The notes beneath the pieces were generated by a model. The model worked only from the letters and a program-made list of their open reading frames with translations. It was not told the DNA's origin and made no database searches. Shown piece by piece: positions 40,304-44,463 of a DNA stretch of 64,000 nucleotides. The stretch's first letter is position 1. Every line of letters starts with the position of its first letter. The stretch is from Gemmatimonadota bacterium. GTDB taxonomy: Bacteria; Gemmatimonadota; Gemmatimonadetes; Gemmatimonadales; Gemmatimonadaceae. Position numbers and translations under genes: made by a program. The DNA is taken from positions 62,001-126,000 of the forward strand of contig JAQBQB010000012.1 in NCBI GenBank assembly GCA_028287235.1, written 5' to 3'.

Positions 40304-42154
40304 ATGATTGTCACGGGAGGACCGCGAAACGCGGCACCGGGAACGCTGAACCAGCTGTTCTTCGACGCAGTCTCGACGTACAACAAGCCCGACGCGCTCC
40401 AGGTCAAGCGGAACGGGCGGTACGAGCCGCTCTCCCACGCCACCGTGGAAGCGCGCGTACGTCGCACGGCGCTCGGACTCGAGGAGCTCGGCGTTCGCTC
40501 CGGCGACCGCGTGGCGATTCTCTCCGAGAACCGGCCCGAGTGGGCGATCGCCGATTTCGCCTGCTTACAGCTCGGCGTGACCGACGTGCCGATCTATCCG
40601 AACCTGCCGAGCGACCAGATCGCGTACGTTCTGCGCGATTCGGGCGCGGTGGCGATCTTCGTGTCGAACGCCGAGCAGGCGGCCAAGGTCGCGTCGATCC
40701 GCGGTGAGTGTCCCACGTTGCGCCACGTGATCACCTTCGCCGACTCGGCGGCGGGCGCCGATCTCACCTTCTCGTCGCTCGAGACGTCGGGTGCGGCGGT
40801 GGACACCGACGCGCGCCGCGGCGTGCTGCGCGACCGCGCCGTGGGCGTGCGGCCCGACGATATCGCCACGCTGATTTACACGTCCGGCACCACGGGCGAG
40901 CCCAAGGGCGTGATGCTCACCCACGACAACATCTACTCGAACGTGGCGGCGTCGCGCACGGCGGTGCCGTTCGAGGGCAACGATACTTGCCTGAGCTTCT
41001 TGCCGCTGTCGCACATCTTCGAGCGGATGGCCGGCCACTATCTGATGTTCGCGACGGGCACGAGCATCGCCTACGCCGAGTCGGTCGACGCGGTGCCGCT
41101 CAACCTCACCGAGGTGCGGCCGACACTGGTGTTGTCGGTGCCGCGGTTGTACGAGAAGATGTACGCGCGGGTACTGGAATCGGCGCTGTCGGGCGGCGGC
41201 GTGAAGAAGCAAATCTTTTTCTGGGCTCGCCGCGTGGCCGATCGCTGGGCCGACGTGAAGCTCGCGGGCGGAACGCCAACGGGGCTGCTCGCGCTGCAAT
41301 ACAGAATCGCCCAGAAATTAGTGTTCTCGAAACTCCAGGCGCGCACCGGCGGCCGGCTGCGCTATTTCGTGTCGGGCGGCGCGCCGCTGGCGCCGGAGAT
41401 CAACAAGTTCTTTTACGCCGCCGGACTGGTCATTCTCGAGGGATACGGCCTCACGGAAACGTCGCCCGTCATCGCGGTGAACACGCCGGCGAACTTCCGT
41501 CTCGGCACGGTGGGCAAGCCGATCGCGGGCGTCGAGGTCACGATCGCCGCGGACGGCGAGATCCTGACGCGCGGACCGCACGTGATGAAAGGCTACTACA
41601 ACAAACCCACCGCCACGGCTGAAGCGATCGACAGCGAAGGCTGGTTCCACACCGGCGACATCGGCGAGCTGCGCGACGGCTTTCTGGCGATCACCGATCG
41701 CAAGAAGGACATCATCGTGACGGCCGGCGGCAAGAACATCGCCCCGCAGCCGATCGAGAACAAAATCAAGACGAACAAGTTCGTCAGTCAGGCCGTGATG
41801 ATCGGCGACAAGCGCAAGTTCCCCGTCGTGCTGGTCGTGCCGAACTGGGACTCGCTCGAGAAGTGGGCGAAGGCGCAAAACATTCTCTCGACCGAGCGCG
41901 CGCAACTGCTCGCCATGCCCGCGATCCGCACGAAGATGGAGCAGGAAGTGCAGAGCGAGGTCGCCGACCTGGCGCGCTACGAGATGCCGAAGAAAGTCGC
42001 GCTGCTCGAGCACGACTTCTCGATCGAGCGGGGCGAGCTCACGCCCACGCTCAAGGTGAAGCGGCGTGTCGTCGACAAGACGTACAAGAAGGAGATCGAC
42101 GACCTGTACGCGAGCGGCGAAGAGACGGACCTGGTGCCGGGACGCGGCCGCTAG
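40304..42154 (+). CDS. Long-chain fatty-acyl-CoA synthetase (AMP-forming)
   Basis: This 616-residue enzyme activates fatty acids to acyl-CoA through acyl-AMP. The AMP-binding motif is IYTSGTTGEPKGVMLTHDN (about 191-209). Other blocks are LPLSHIFERMAGHY, RYFVSGGAPLAPEINKFF, GYGLTETSPVIAVNTP and the hinge GFLAITDRKKDIIVTAGGKN. The length and the SGGAPL-GYGLTE pattern match the FadD15/FACL group. The next gene is convergent and overlaps by four bases, so no terminator separates them. No beta-oxidation genes adjoin; the crotonase at 17521 is far away. Confidence 0.93.
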   Translation: MIVTGGPRNAAPGTLNQLFFDAVSTYNKPDALQVKRNGRYEPLSHATVEARVRRTALGLEELGVRSGDRVAILSENRPEWAIADFACLQLGVTDVPIYPNLPSDQIAYVLRDSGAVAIFVSNAEQAAKVASIRGECPTLRHVITFADSAAGADLTFSSLETSGAAVDTDARRGVLRDRAVGVRPDDIATLIYTSGTTGEPKGVMLTHDNIYSNVAASRTAVPFEGNDTCLSFLPLSHIFERMAGHYLMFATGTSIAYAESVDAVPLNLTEVRPTLVLSVPRLYEKMYARVLESALSGGGVKKQIFFWARRVADRWADVKLAGGTPTGLLALQYRIAQKLVFSKLQARTGGRLRYFVSGGAPLAPEINKFFYAAGLVILEGYGLTETSPVIAVNTPANFRLGTVGKPIAGVEVTIAADGEILTRGPHVMKGYYNKPTATAEAIDSEGWFHTGDIGELRDGFLAITDRKKDIIVTAGGKNIAPQPIENKIKTNKFVSQAVMIGDKRKFPVVLVVPNWDSLEKWAKAQNILSTERAQLLAMPAIRTKMEQEVQSEVADLARYEMPKKVALLEHDFSIERGELTPTLKVKRRVVDKTYKKEIDDLYASGEETDLVPGRGR

Positions 42155-42780
42155 CCATCCCGGCGCTTCAGTGCGATCGGGGCGCTGACGGTCACCTTGA
42201 CGTCGAGGCGCGCCACCCACACCTCGTCATCGCGCGCGAGCTCGACCAGCCCATCGGGAATGGGCATCGAGACCGGACCGAGCATGCGGCCTTTCCCGCG
42301 CAGGCTTCTGAGCAGCGACTCGATCGTGGCCGCGTCGGCGGTCGCATCGACAGCCACGGCATCGACCGAGCCCTGCGCGAGCGGCGCGATGTCGGCGACG
42401 AGGAGCGAGACGCCGTCGCCGCTCACCATGCCGGCCGGCGCATTCAGCAACAGCAATTCGGCCGGAGACATACCGCGCACGAGCTGCGCGTGCGCGGCCC
42501 ACGCGCCGTGCAGCACGGCGGTCATTCGGGCATCCGTGAGGTCGAGTGTCGCCGCGAGGCGCACGGCCTCCGCCTCGCTTGGCTGGACGGCAGCGGCCGC
42601 CGGTTGTCGCTCGACGAAGTAGACGACGCCGTCGCGAATGGGATATTCGGCGAGACAAGTCGGGCAGCCAAGCATGCCTGCGAGAATGTCGCGATCTTCG
42701 GCGCGCTCGATCGAGGCCACGAGCCACGTCTCTTCGTGCGGATTCACGCAGCGCAGAATGTCGACGAGTGGAACGAACAT
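42151..42780 (-). CDS. Trm112-like zinc-binding protein with an unassigned C-terminal domain
   Basis: This 209-residue protein begins with a Trm112-like module: Cys11 (LVDILRCVNPHE) and the pair Cys39/Cys42 (GCPTCLAEYPIRDGVVYF). The remaining 150 residues alternate short strands and helices (VSLLVADIAPLAQGSVDAVA and LRGKGRMLGPVSMPIPDGLV), which looks like a Rossmann fold resembling a methyltransferase but without the glycine-rich SAM loop. Trm112 proteins act as partners that stabilise methyltransferases, so a fused degenerate enzyme is possible. The start is the ATG at 42780. The gene follows the short-chain dehydrogenase with an 8-base gap and overlaps the convergent acyl-CoA synthetase stop. 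Confidence 0.65.
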   Translation of the reverse strand: MFVPLVDILRCVNPHEETWLVASIERAEDRDILAGMLGCPTCLAEYPIRDGVVYFVERQPAAAAVQPSEAEAVRLAATLDLTDARMTAVLHGAWAAHAQLVRGMSPAELLLLNAPAGMVSGDGVSLLVADIAPLAQGSVDAVAVDATADAATIESLLRSLRGKGRMLGPVSMPIPDGLVELARDDEVWVARLDVKVTVSAPIALKRRDG

Positions 42781-42788
42781 GCGTCGTT

Positions 42789-43505
42789 CTACGCGCGCGA
42801 CAGGCGCAGCTCGTCGACGTTCACGTCGGCGGGCTGGGTGACGGCGTAGCGGACCGCGGCCGCGACGGCCGCGGGCGAGAGCATCTGTACGCGCGGCGTG
42901 AAGCCCGGGCGCATATCGGGATCGACCGCGTCCCAAAGCGCCGTATCCACCGGACCGGGAGACACGAGCGTGGTGCGAATGCCGCTGCCGCGCAGCTCGC
43001 CGCGCAACACTTCGTGCAGCGCGCGCAGGCCGAACTTGCTCGCGGCATAGGCGCCGTTCTCGGGAAAGGTCGCGCGATCGGCGATCGAGCCGATCATCAC
43101 GATGTGGCCGCTGCGCCGCGCGCGCATGGCGCCGAGGAATGCGTGCACGAGCAGAAAGGGCGCGACGAGGTTCACGTCGAGCGCGGCGCGGAAGTCGCGC
43201 GGGTCGGTGGTGTCGACCGTCGCGAGCTTGAACATGCCGGCGTTGTTGACGATGACATCCGGCGCGCCGTCGAACTCGTCGGTGAGGCGCTCGGCGAGCG
43301 CGGCGATCGCCGCCGGGTCGGCGACGTCGCAGGGATAGGGGAGCGCGCGTGCTCCGAGATCGGCCGCACGCGCGCGGAGCTCGTCGCTCGATCGCGCGAG
43401 CATCGCCACGCGCATGCCGTCGGCCACGAGTGCACGCGCCACCTCGAGCCCAATGCCGCGCGACGCCCCGCTCACCAGCGCCGTCCGCCCCGCGAGCGCG
43501 CTCAT
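42789..43505 (-). CDS. Short-chain dehydrogenase/reductase coupled to PTPS
   Basis: This 238-residue classical SDR shows VSGASRGIG (11-19) for cofactor binding, NNAGM, and the catalytic region IGSIADRATFPENGAYAASK with the YxxxK pair. The length fits. It starts in the stop codon of the PTPS gene (ATGA), which is the best functional clue. In biopterin synthesis, PTPS is followed by sepiapterin reductase, an SDR that completes tetrahydrobiopterin, so this could be such a reductase. Sequence motifs alone do not distinguish it from other ketoreductases. Confidence 0.85.
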   Translation of the reverse strand: MSALAGRTALVSGASRGIGLEVARALVADGMRVAMLARSSDELRARAADLGARALPYPCDVADPAAIAALAERLTDEFDGAPDVIVNNAGMFKLATVDTTDPRDFRAALDVNLVAPFLLVHAFLGAMRARRSGHIVMIGSIADRATFPENGAYAASKFGLRALHEVLRGELRGSGIRTTLVSPGPVDTALWDAVDPDMRPGFTPRVQMLSPAAVAAAVRYAVTQPADVNVDELRLSRA

Positions 43506-43915
43506 TTTCCGTCGTATTCCACGTAGTTGTTCGCCGTTTCCCAGAGCACCAGGCGCGTCAAGCGCGCGGGGGCGATGTGCGGCTCGAGCACGCGCCACAT
43601 CGCGACGACGATGTTCTCGGTGGTCGGGATGGTGTCGCGCATGAAGTCGACCTCGAGATTGAAGTTGCGATGGTCGGCTTTGCTGACGACTTCGCGCTCC
43701 ACGATCTCCTTCAGCTTGCTGAGGTCGATCACGTAGCCCGTGCGCGGATCGATGGAGCCGGTCACGGACACGTCGAGCGTGTAGTTATGGCCGTGCCAGT
43801 TGGGATTGTTGCACTTGCCGAAAATGGCCTGGTTTTCTTCGTCGGAGAGCGCCGGGTTGTGCACGCGGTGCGCGGCATTGAACATCATCCGACGCGTGAT
43901 CGTGACCTGTGGCAT
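43502..43915 (-). CDS. 6-pyruvoyl-tetrahydropterin synthase family protein (PTPS-like)
   Basis: This 137-residue enzyme acts on dihydroneopterin triphosphate. Zinc ligands are His16 (FNAAHRVHN) and His41/His43 in HGHNYTLDV. The catalytic Cys35 sits in GKCNNPNWHGHNY, almost the same as the eukaryotic-type PTPS motif GKCNNPNGHGHNY. This makes true PTPS activity (6-pyruvoyl-tetrahydropterin) as likely as the QueD reaction of queuosine synthesis. The rest (DHRNFNLEVDF, TTENIVVAMW) also follows PTPS. The coupled SDR supports biopterin. A structured RNA with a terminator lies just upstream, so expression may be controlled by attenuation. Confidence 0.9.
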   Translation of the reverse strand: MPQVTITRRMMFNAAHRVHNPALSDEENQAIFGKCNNPNWHGHNYTLDVSVTGSIDPRTGYVIDLSKLKEIVEREVVSKADHRNFNLEVDFMRDTIPTTENIVVAMWRVLEPHIAPARLTRLVLWETANNYVEYDGK

Positions 43916-43939
43916 GTCGCTCCCTCCGTTGGATCGAAC

Positions 43940-44155
43940 AAAAGAACGAGCCCCGTGGTGTGACCCACGGGGCTCGAAGACTCGGTTCGGAGAGGTTTAC
44001 TGAAGCCCGGTCGAATGTGTGAGGTCCTCACCATCAACCTGCCGCCTTCCCCCGCACTGGGGGCATGACGTCGGTGATAGATTGTCGAACCAACCCGAAG
44101 GACTTATCGGCTCAAAAACGAATTCTCCGTCCCGACTGTTGCTTCTGGCTCGTGG
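43940..44155 (-). ncRNA. Structured leader or small RNA upstream of the PTPS operon
   Basis: This is about 215 bases without a gene. From a strong promoter (44162-44190) the minus-strand RNA would start near 44155. It can form a closing stem GGTTCG / CGAACC, a hairpin GCCCCCAGTGCGGGGG, and a long hairpin GGTTGA..GTGAGG / CCTCAC..TCGACC. It ends in an intrinsic terminator about 30 bases before the PTPS start. The two readings are a regulated leader (riboswitch or attenuator) or a separate small RNA of about 6S RNA size. I do not recognise a known family. Confidence 0.55.
43947..43976 (-). terminator. Intrinsic terminator in front of PTPS
   Basis: CGAGCCCCGTGG and CCACGGGGCTCG form a perfect 12-bp stem with a 6-base loop. 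On the minus strand it is followed by TTCTTTTGTTC, a fair U-tract, so it works leftward, toward and just before the PTPS start at 43915. Confidence 0.85.
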
Positions 44156-44161
44156 AAAAGC

Positions 44162-44190
44162 AAGTTAGATACCAACGTACGACAGGTCAA
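44162..44190 (-). promoter_or_regulatory. Promoter of the PTPS leader RNA
   Basis: On the minus strand TTGACC (44190-44185) and TAACTT (44167-44162) are spaced by exactly 17 bases. It is one of the best sigma-70-like promoters in the window. The -35 lies only 3 bases from the start of the divergent small membrane protein gene. Confidence 0.75.
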
Positions 44191-44193
44191 TAA

Positions 44194-44361
44194 ATGGATC
44201 TCGGCATTCTGATTGGTCTCGCGCTCATCGTCATCTGGGGCATCGGCGCACTCGCGTTCGACGGACCCGGATGGATTCATCTCCTGCTCACCGTGGGCGT
44301 GTTCGTCGTGATCTGGCGCATCGTCGTCACCGGCGACCGGCGGCATCCGGAAGCGAAATAA
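44194..44361 (+). CDS. Lmo0937-like small membrane protein (DUF5670-like)
   Basis: This 55-residue frame starts ATG GAT CTC and encodes two membrane helices: ILIGLALIVIWGIGALAF (about 5-22) and WIHLLLTVGVFVVIWRIVV (about 27-45), with a short basic tail. The WIHLLL pattern matches the very small lmo0937-type membrane proteins found across bacteria, of unknown function. The ribosome site is poor, and the promoter must overlap the PTPS leader RNA promoter on the other strand. The size, composition and motif make it a likely real gene. Confidence 0.65.
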   Translation: MDLGILIGLALIVIWGIGALAFDGPGWIHLLLTVGVFVVIWRIVVTGDRRHPEAK

Positions 44362-44364
44362 TCG

Positions 44365-44463
44365 CGCCGTCCCGAGCATTCGCGTCATCCCGAGTATTCG
44401 CGTCATCCTGAGCATTCGTGTCATCCTGAGCATTCGTGTCATCCTGAGCGAAGCGAAGGATCG
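44365..44463. repeat. 18-bp tandem array of a dispersed repeat (GTCATCCTGAGC type)
   Basis: Three full 18-bp copies of CGYGTCATCCYGAGYATT (44381-44434) follow a 16-base partial copy and end in GTCATCCTGAGCGAAGCGAA with GGATCG. The last unit is the classical dispersed bacterial repeat. The array fills the 141-base gap between the small membrane protein and the convergent transporter gene. Nothing else is seen there. Confidence 0.85.

Follow-up and report, generated by a model that had tools for sequence, protein, structure and literature searches.

A probable divergent 6S RNA gene upstream of PTPS in Gemmatimonadota

6S RNA is an RNA decoy that binds RNA polymerase and acts as a global transcription regulator in most bacteria. 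It is recognized as an unbranched rod of about 200 nt with a closing stem, a large central bubble and an apical stem, with a signature at the edge of the bubble (5′ side, uGAgCCgA; 3′ side, GGuUCaA), encoded by a near-universal, independent gene that usually occurs in one or two copies. Its main survey across bacteria is reportedly that of Wehner et al. 2014 (RNA Biol 11:1467); no mention of a 6S RNA from Gemmatimonas or Gemmatimonadetes was found in the literature searched, which did not extend to that survey. Genomes with two 6S RNAs have already been described for B. subtilis and Legionella (PMC11077062, PMC4211561), and pRNA synthesis is published to start at U44 of the E. coli RNA and at C40 of B. 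subtilis 6S-1 (PMC8876501). The E. coli gene for 6S RNA, ssrS, is located immediately 5′ of the folate gene fau.

Here we analyze a structured RNA encoded upstream of a PTPS-family gene in a 64-kb stretch of DNA (the window; G000:C2:62001-126000, with G000 denoting the window genome). A first-pass annotation had preferred to read this RNA as a pterin- or folate-responsive riboswitch or attenuator, and had named an independent small RNA, for instance 6S RNA, as the alternative. Homology to 6S RNA favors the latter, and sequence comparison leads us to propose, with a probability of roughly 0.93, that the RNA is the ssrS product, the 6S RNA of this Gemmatimonadaceae bacterium, divergent enough to be missed by Rfam.

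The RNA gene and its surroundings

The predicted primary transcript occupies positions 43940..44155 on the minus strand, running for about 215 nt from promoter to terminator, the latter included, with both ends predicted. This confirms the first-pass description of a structured minus-strand RNA of that size (about 44155 to 43940) located 5′ of PTPS and ending in a 12-bp terminator. The promoter had been called near-consensus. Its −35 element TTGACC (44185..44190, minus strand) and −10 element TAACTT (44162..44167, minus strand; family pattern TANNTT) are indeed present with a 17-nt spacer, placing the predicted transcription start near 44155, but the wording was generous, since the −10 element agrees with TATAAT at three of six positions; this promoter was not picked up by a sigma-70 scan set at 9 of 12. 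Among relatives with enough upstream DNA, 35 of 68 carry a TTGAC-type −35 and a TANNNT-type −10 element with suitable spacing 5′ of the RNA.

At the opposite end, the intrinsic terminator (43937..43976, minus strand) comprises the 12-bp stem (43976-43947) and the U-rich tail (TTCTTTTGTT) that had been claimed for it. Its position is kept in relatives: in 71 of 74, a stem of 9 bp or more with a T-rich tail behind it lies directly 3′ of the RNA, as compared to 43 of 222 controls obtained by shuffling. Over the 223-nt stretch, folding is better than in shuffled sequences (z −3.84), whereas the folding energy of the core minus terminator and leader is unremarkable (z −1.25); what decides the matter is conservation together with covariation, rather than folding energy.

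The downstream neighbor, outside the RNA, encodes a PTPS-family protein (PF01242, E 6.8e-33; 43502..43915, minus strand) and starts at 43915, which is 31 bases after the terminator stem and in agreement with the original estimate of about 30. PTPS is adjoined by a short-chain dehydrogenase gene (42789..43505, minus strand), and the label of pterin operon given to this cluster is fair because GTP cyclohydrolase I is the next gene after PTPS in several relatives. Downstream of the dehydrogenase, an open frame on the minus strand (42154-42840) has no Pfam match. On the plus strand, a gene for a small divergent membrane protein of 54 aa (44197..44361), DUF5670-like at a score below the Pfam cut-off, starts beside the 6S promoter, and similar starts are found at the same place in close relatives. 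Just past this gene lies a tandem array (44362-44449) with 4.9 copies of the 18-bp unit TCGCGTCATCCTGAGCAT, running into CATCCTGAGCGAAGCGAAGGATC (44440-44462). Among named relatives, those nearest at the PTPS locus belong to the Gemmatimonadaceae and Gemmatimonadota; in one of the loci, that of Roseisolibacter (L137), PTPS is retained and the RNA 5′ of it has seemingly been lost.

Homology, distribution and alternative readings

The Rfam search suggested in the first-pass annotation yielded no 6S match for the window copy. Applied to the whole window with gathering scores and to the RNA region with E values up to 10, it returned chance-level matches only (sX12, suhB, microRNAs), and the window copy did not match the 6S RNA model RF00013 even at E 10; no tRNA or tmRNA was found in the 64-kb window. 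Searching the whole genome with RF00013 produced a single match (C30:51028-51188, 40.5 bits, E 1.9e-6), below the cut-off. The matched sequence is paralogous to the window RNA and shares its signature elements, and both copies are detected by R1, a covariance model built from the closest relatives only, and by R2, a phylum-wide covariance model built from Gemmatimonadota sequences alone. When applied to 59 relatives, RF00013 generated eleven matches at E ≤ 1, corresponding to eight PTPS-linked RNAs, two RNAs of the paralogue type (in G019 and G020) and the C30 paralogue itself. The matches falling at the exact position of the PTPS-linked orthologue, below the cut-off, are those in G010, G012, G015, G018, G023, G026, G028 and G029. 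In the deep-branching family f9, RF00013 (E 3.8e-7, below the cut-off) and R1 converge on one site (L108).

In the reverse direction, R1 was inconclusive against E. coli ssrS, with an unconvincing 6 bits, and the phylum-wide R2 was therefore built. In 6 kb of E. coli sequence, R2 ranks ssrS first (17.9 bits, E 0.0014), and it does so again when 50 kb are searched with no filter applied (17.9 bits, E 0.011; runner-up, 11.0 bits). The resulting alignment covers the full model length on the right strand, with CCCCU-GAGCCGAU and GGGUUCAAGGG in register. Recognition is hence reciprocal, the model of the phylum RNA finding a proven 6S RNA, with forward and reverse tests that are not wholly independent because L108, first found with RF00013, is part of R2. 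Taken together, the two lines of homology point to 6S RNA as the clear reading. A match to a housekeeping RNA unrelated to PTPS, the outcome put forward in advance as evidence against a riboswitch, was in effect obtained, by way of the relatives and without a match to the window sequence.

A different interpretation of the same data is that the RNA belongs to another class of polymerase-binding RNA, such as Ms1 of Actinobacteria, and merely resembles 6S RNA. Ms1 is structurally related to 6S RNA, yet binds core polymerase (PMC9130861), and the window copy does fall below the Rfam 6S cut-off. We nonetheless consider this interpretation very improbable: RF00013 matches orthologues and the paralogue directly, the reciprocal match to E. 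coli ssrS aligns the GAGCCGAU / GGGUUC signature, and the predicted pRNA template is conserved.

The distribution of the RNA across the phylum can be assessed with R2, which finds it in 147 of 150 genomes and in 144 of the 147 good ones, almost always in one copy, and therefore fits a near-universal, independent housekeeping RNA gene. The RF00013 cut-off is passed in none of the 150 Gemmatimonadota genomes, so that the 6S RNA of the phylum goes unannotated. In blastn searches with the window RNA, matches were obtained in 35 of 59 relatives, again nearly always one per genome. Two copies are rare in the phylum, having been found in G000, G049 and G070 in the 150-genome R2 search and in G032 in the search of relatives. 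The second copy of the window genome (L031/L105; G000:C30:51029-51185) has a textbook 6S rod fold and lies between genes for a GFO/IDH/MocA oxidoreductase and a luciferase-like monooxygenase. Since G019 (L101) and G020 (L100) carry the C30-type copy only, the two 6S types appear to replace one another, and in a quick tree the C30-type sequences (L100, L101, L102, L105) group together, outside the PTPS-linked sequences of family f1.

These data bear on the interpretation initially preferred, in which a pterin- or folate-sensing riboswitch or attenuator would control PTPS through transcription termination. Such a role is in keeping with the terminator lying between the RNA and PTPS, and with the conservation of the arrangement: of 80 named PTPS loci, 74 have the RNA 5′ of PTPS and in the same orientation (the other six include L117, cut off at a contig end, and L137 of Roseisolibacter). 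The intervening gap, however, varies from 61 to 709 nt, the C30 paralogue sits away from pterin genes, and several family members (L088, L093, L096, L104 and L106) have no PTPS within the fetched flank, so that the RNA is not always in cis upstream of a regulated gene class. The terminator, moreover, is a hairpin of its own, lies outside the conserved fold and shows no clear competition from other pairings. The longest helix between the core and the terminator arm, in a simple test, has a mean of 7.0 versus 6.4 in shuffles, and there is therefore no clear antiterminator. Together with the homology to 6S RNA, these observations argue against the riboswitch or attenuator, which we regard as extremely improbable. 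The association of the RNA with PTPS can be explained without ligand sensing; PTPS is probably a conserved neighbor reached by read-through or from its own promoter, rather than through ligand control.

A further possibility adds to the identification as 6S RNA rather than competing with it. The RNA might also act in cis, with its promoter and a leaky terminator setting the expression of the PTPS operon and linking the supply of pterins to growth phase. The two genes have been neighbors for long, PTPS lying 64-269 nt downstream of the RNA in eight members from several families (L091, L092, L094, L095, L097, L098, L099 and L107), and the location of E. coli ssrS just 5′ of fau offers a parallel. 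Against it, the linkage is lost in some members, its distance is variable and the strong terminator is nearly universal (71 of 74 relatives), and we deem a cis-acting role unlikely. It is quite unlikely that the old linkage to PTPS is functional in the specific sense of coupling pterin/folate cofactor synthesis to growth phase, by terminator read-through or by polymerase release from the 6S RNA at its own locus, as a convergent counterpart of ssrS-fau.

Conserved fold and predicted pRNA

The conserved 6S core identified by R1 and R2 (43984..44134, minus strand; 105984-106134 of G000:C2) is a rod with a central bubble, supported by covariation. It is delimited by a closing stem in which the 5′ arm (44124..44133, minus strand) pairs with the 3′ arm (43984..43993, minus strand), with compensatory changes at all ten pairs in alignment A4. 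The family alignment of 27 orthologues conforms to a rod without branches, made up of a closing stem of 10 bp, a second helix (P2), a central bubble and an apical stem. The second helix is formed by a U-run and GAGCC pairing with GGCUU and an A-run, and the tip of the apical stem reads CCCC-AGUGC-GGGG; in the window copy, the apical hairpin is CCCCC-AGUGC-GGGGG (44049..44063, minus strand), as defined by the covariation alignments. Standard pairs occupy 95.5% of cells in the 27-orthologue alignment, with changes on both sides at nine pairs and none of 500 shuffles as good, and pairing falls to 43-63% when the partner is shifted by 1-3 columns.

Relatives had also been proposed for alignment upstream of PTPS in search of covariation, and the covariation found is strong. 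In the phylum-wide set (n = 37), compensatory changes occur at 31 of 38 pairs, with double changes in 170 cells and a covariation score of 0.454 versus 0.178 in shuffled data, in an alignment biased towards the structure to which it had been fitted; RNAalifold alone recovers most of the same pairs. The rod shape characteristic of 6S RNA is thus found in the consensus structure, in the covariation and in the single-sequence fold of the paralogue L031.

The bubble-edge signature is likewise present, in the RF00013 alignments of L031 and L108 and in the R2 alignment to E. coli ssrS. In the window copy, the 5′ strand of P2 (UUUUUGAGCC; 44109..44118, minus strand) carries this signature and the predicted pRNA template, and is aligned by R2 to CCCCU-GAGCCGAU of E. 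coli ssrS and, via the paralogue L031, to the RF00013 consensus CuGAgCCgA. The 3′ strand of P2, GGGCUU (44003..44008, minus strand), corresponds to the 6S signature GGuUC on the basis of covariation and of the alignments to RF00013 and E. coli ssrS. The 3′ central-bubble region (44009..44024, minus strand) contains ACACAUUC, 8 nt that are identical at the corresponding place of E. coli ssrS.

By homology to 6S RNA, the window RNA would mimic an open promoter and sequester the primary sigma-RNA polymerase holoenzyme, which would reduce transcription at many promoters. When nucleotides are plentiful, the polymerase would copy the UUUUUGAGCCGAU strand into a short pRNA, 5′-AUCGGCUCAAAAA..., and this synthesis would open P2, make GGGCUU available for pairing with AAGUCC of the bubble, and lead to release of the polymerase. 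Alignment to E. coli places the predicted pRNA start at a U equivalent to E. coli U44 (44106, minus strand), with a putative pRNA 5′-AUCGGCUCAAAAACG. This position is U or C in all 37 aligned members, and the predicted pRNA would begin as 5′-AUCGGCUCAAAAA from U in the window and C30 copies and as 5′-GUUGGCUCAAAAA from C in many relatives.

The alternative helix between bubble and P2 averages 6.5 bp in these related sequences, versus 4.8 bp in shuffled ones, with no shuffled set having a mean above 5.3 bp. The candidate partner of GGGCUUCAAAA is AAGUCC in the 5′ central bubble of the window copy (6 bp; 44100..44105, minus strand) and UUUUGAAGCC in the C30 copy (10 perfect bp). The case for a bubble-collapse helix is strong for the C30 type and no more than suggestive for the window copy, which by itself is not significant.

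Comparison with known systems

The value of these results lies mainly in that the standard library misses 6S RNA throughout a phylum. R2 fills the gap left by Rfam in 147 of 150 genomes; the divergent 6S RNAs that it yields form a sizeable set that covaries and has a predicted pRNA open to testing, and a tempting but probably wrong pterin-riboswitch candidate is removed. Placed beside ssrS-fau of E. coli, the long-lasting neighborhood of PTPS and 6S RNA also raises a question on cofactor genes adjoining 6S RNA.

The window RNA resembles 6S RNA as represented by RF00013 and E. coli ssrS in forming a rod in which a closing stem, a central bubble and an apical stem follow one another. Also in common are the UGAGCCGAU element at the 5′ bubble edge, its 3′ counterpart GG(G)UUC/GGCUUC, the presence of ACACAUUC in the 3′ bubble region and a gene of its own just 5′ of a folate- or pterin-related gene (fau in E. 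coli, PTPS in the window). It differs in its shorter core (about 151 nt), in a P2 made up of UUUUU/AAAAA and GAGCC/GGCUU instead of being GC-rich, in its conserved GCCCC-AGUGC-GGGG apical hairpin and in a score below the Rfam cut-off. Like B. subtilis, with its 6S-1/6S-2 pair, the window genome holds two 6S copies (on C2 and C30), and the 10 perfect bp of the C30 copy liken it to B. subtilis 6S-1 and to the Aquifex-type 6S RNA of A. aeolicus (PMC8876501); two copies are, in contrast, rare in Gemmatimonadota, and the likeness to the B. subtilis pair is one of description, not of sequence. With Ms1 of Actinobacteria, a rod-like RNA structurally related to 6S RNA (PMC9130861), the window RNA has its general shape in common. 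Unlike Ms1, which binds core polymerase without sigma, the window RNA carries the 6S signature and has orthologues matched by the 6S model, a distinction from Ms1 that is likewise drawn by description.
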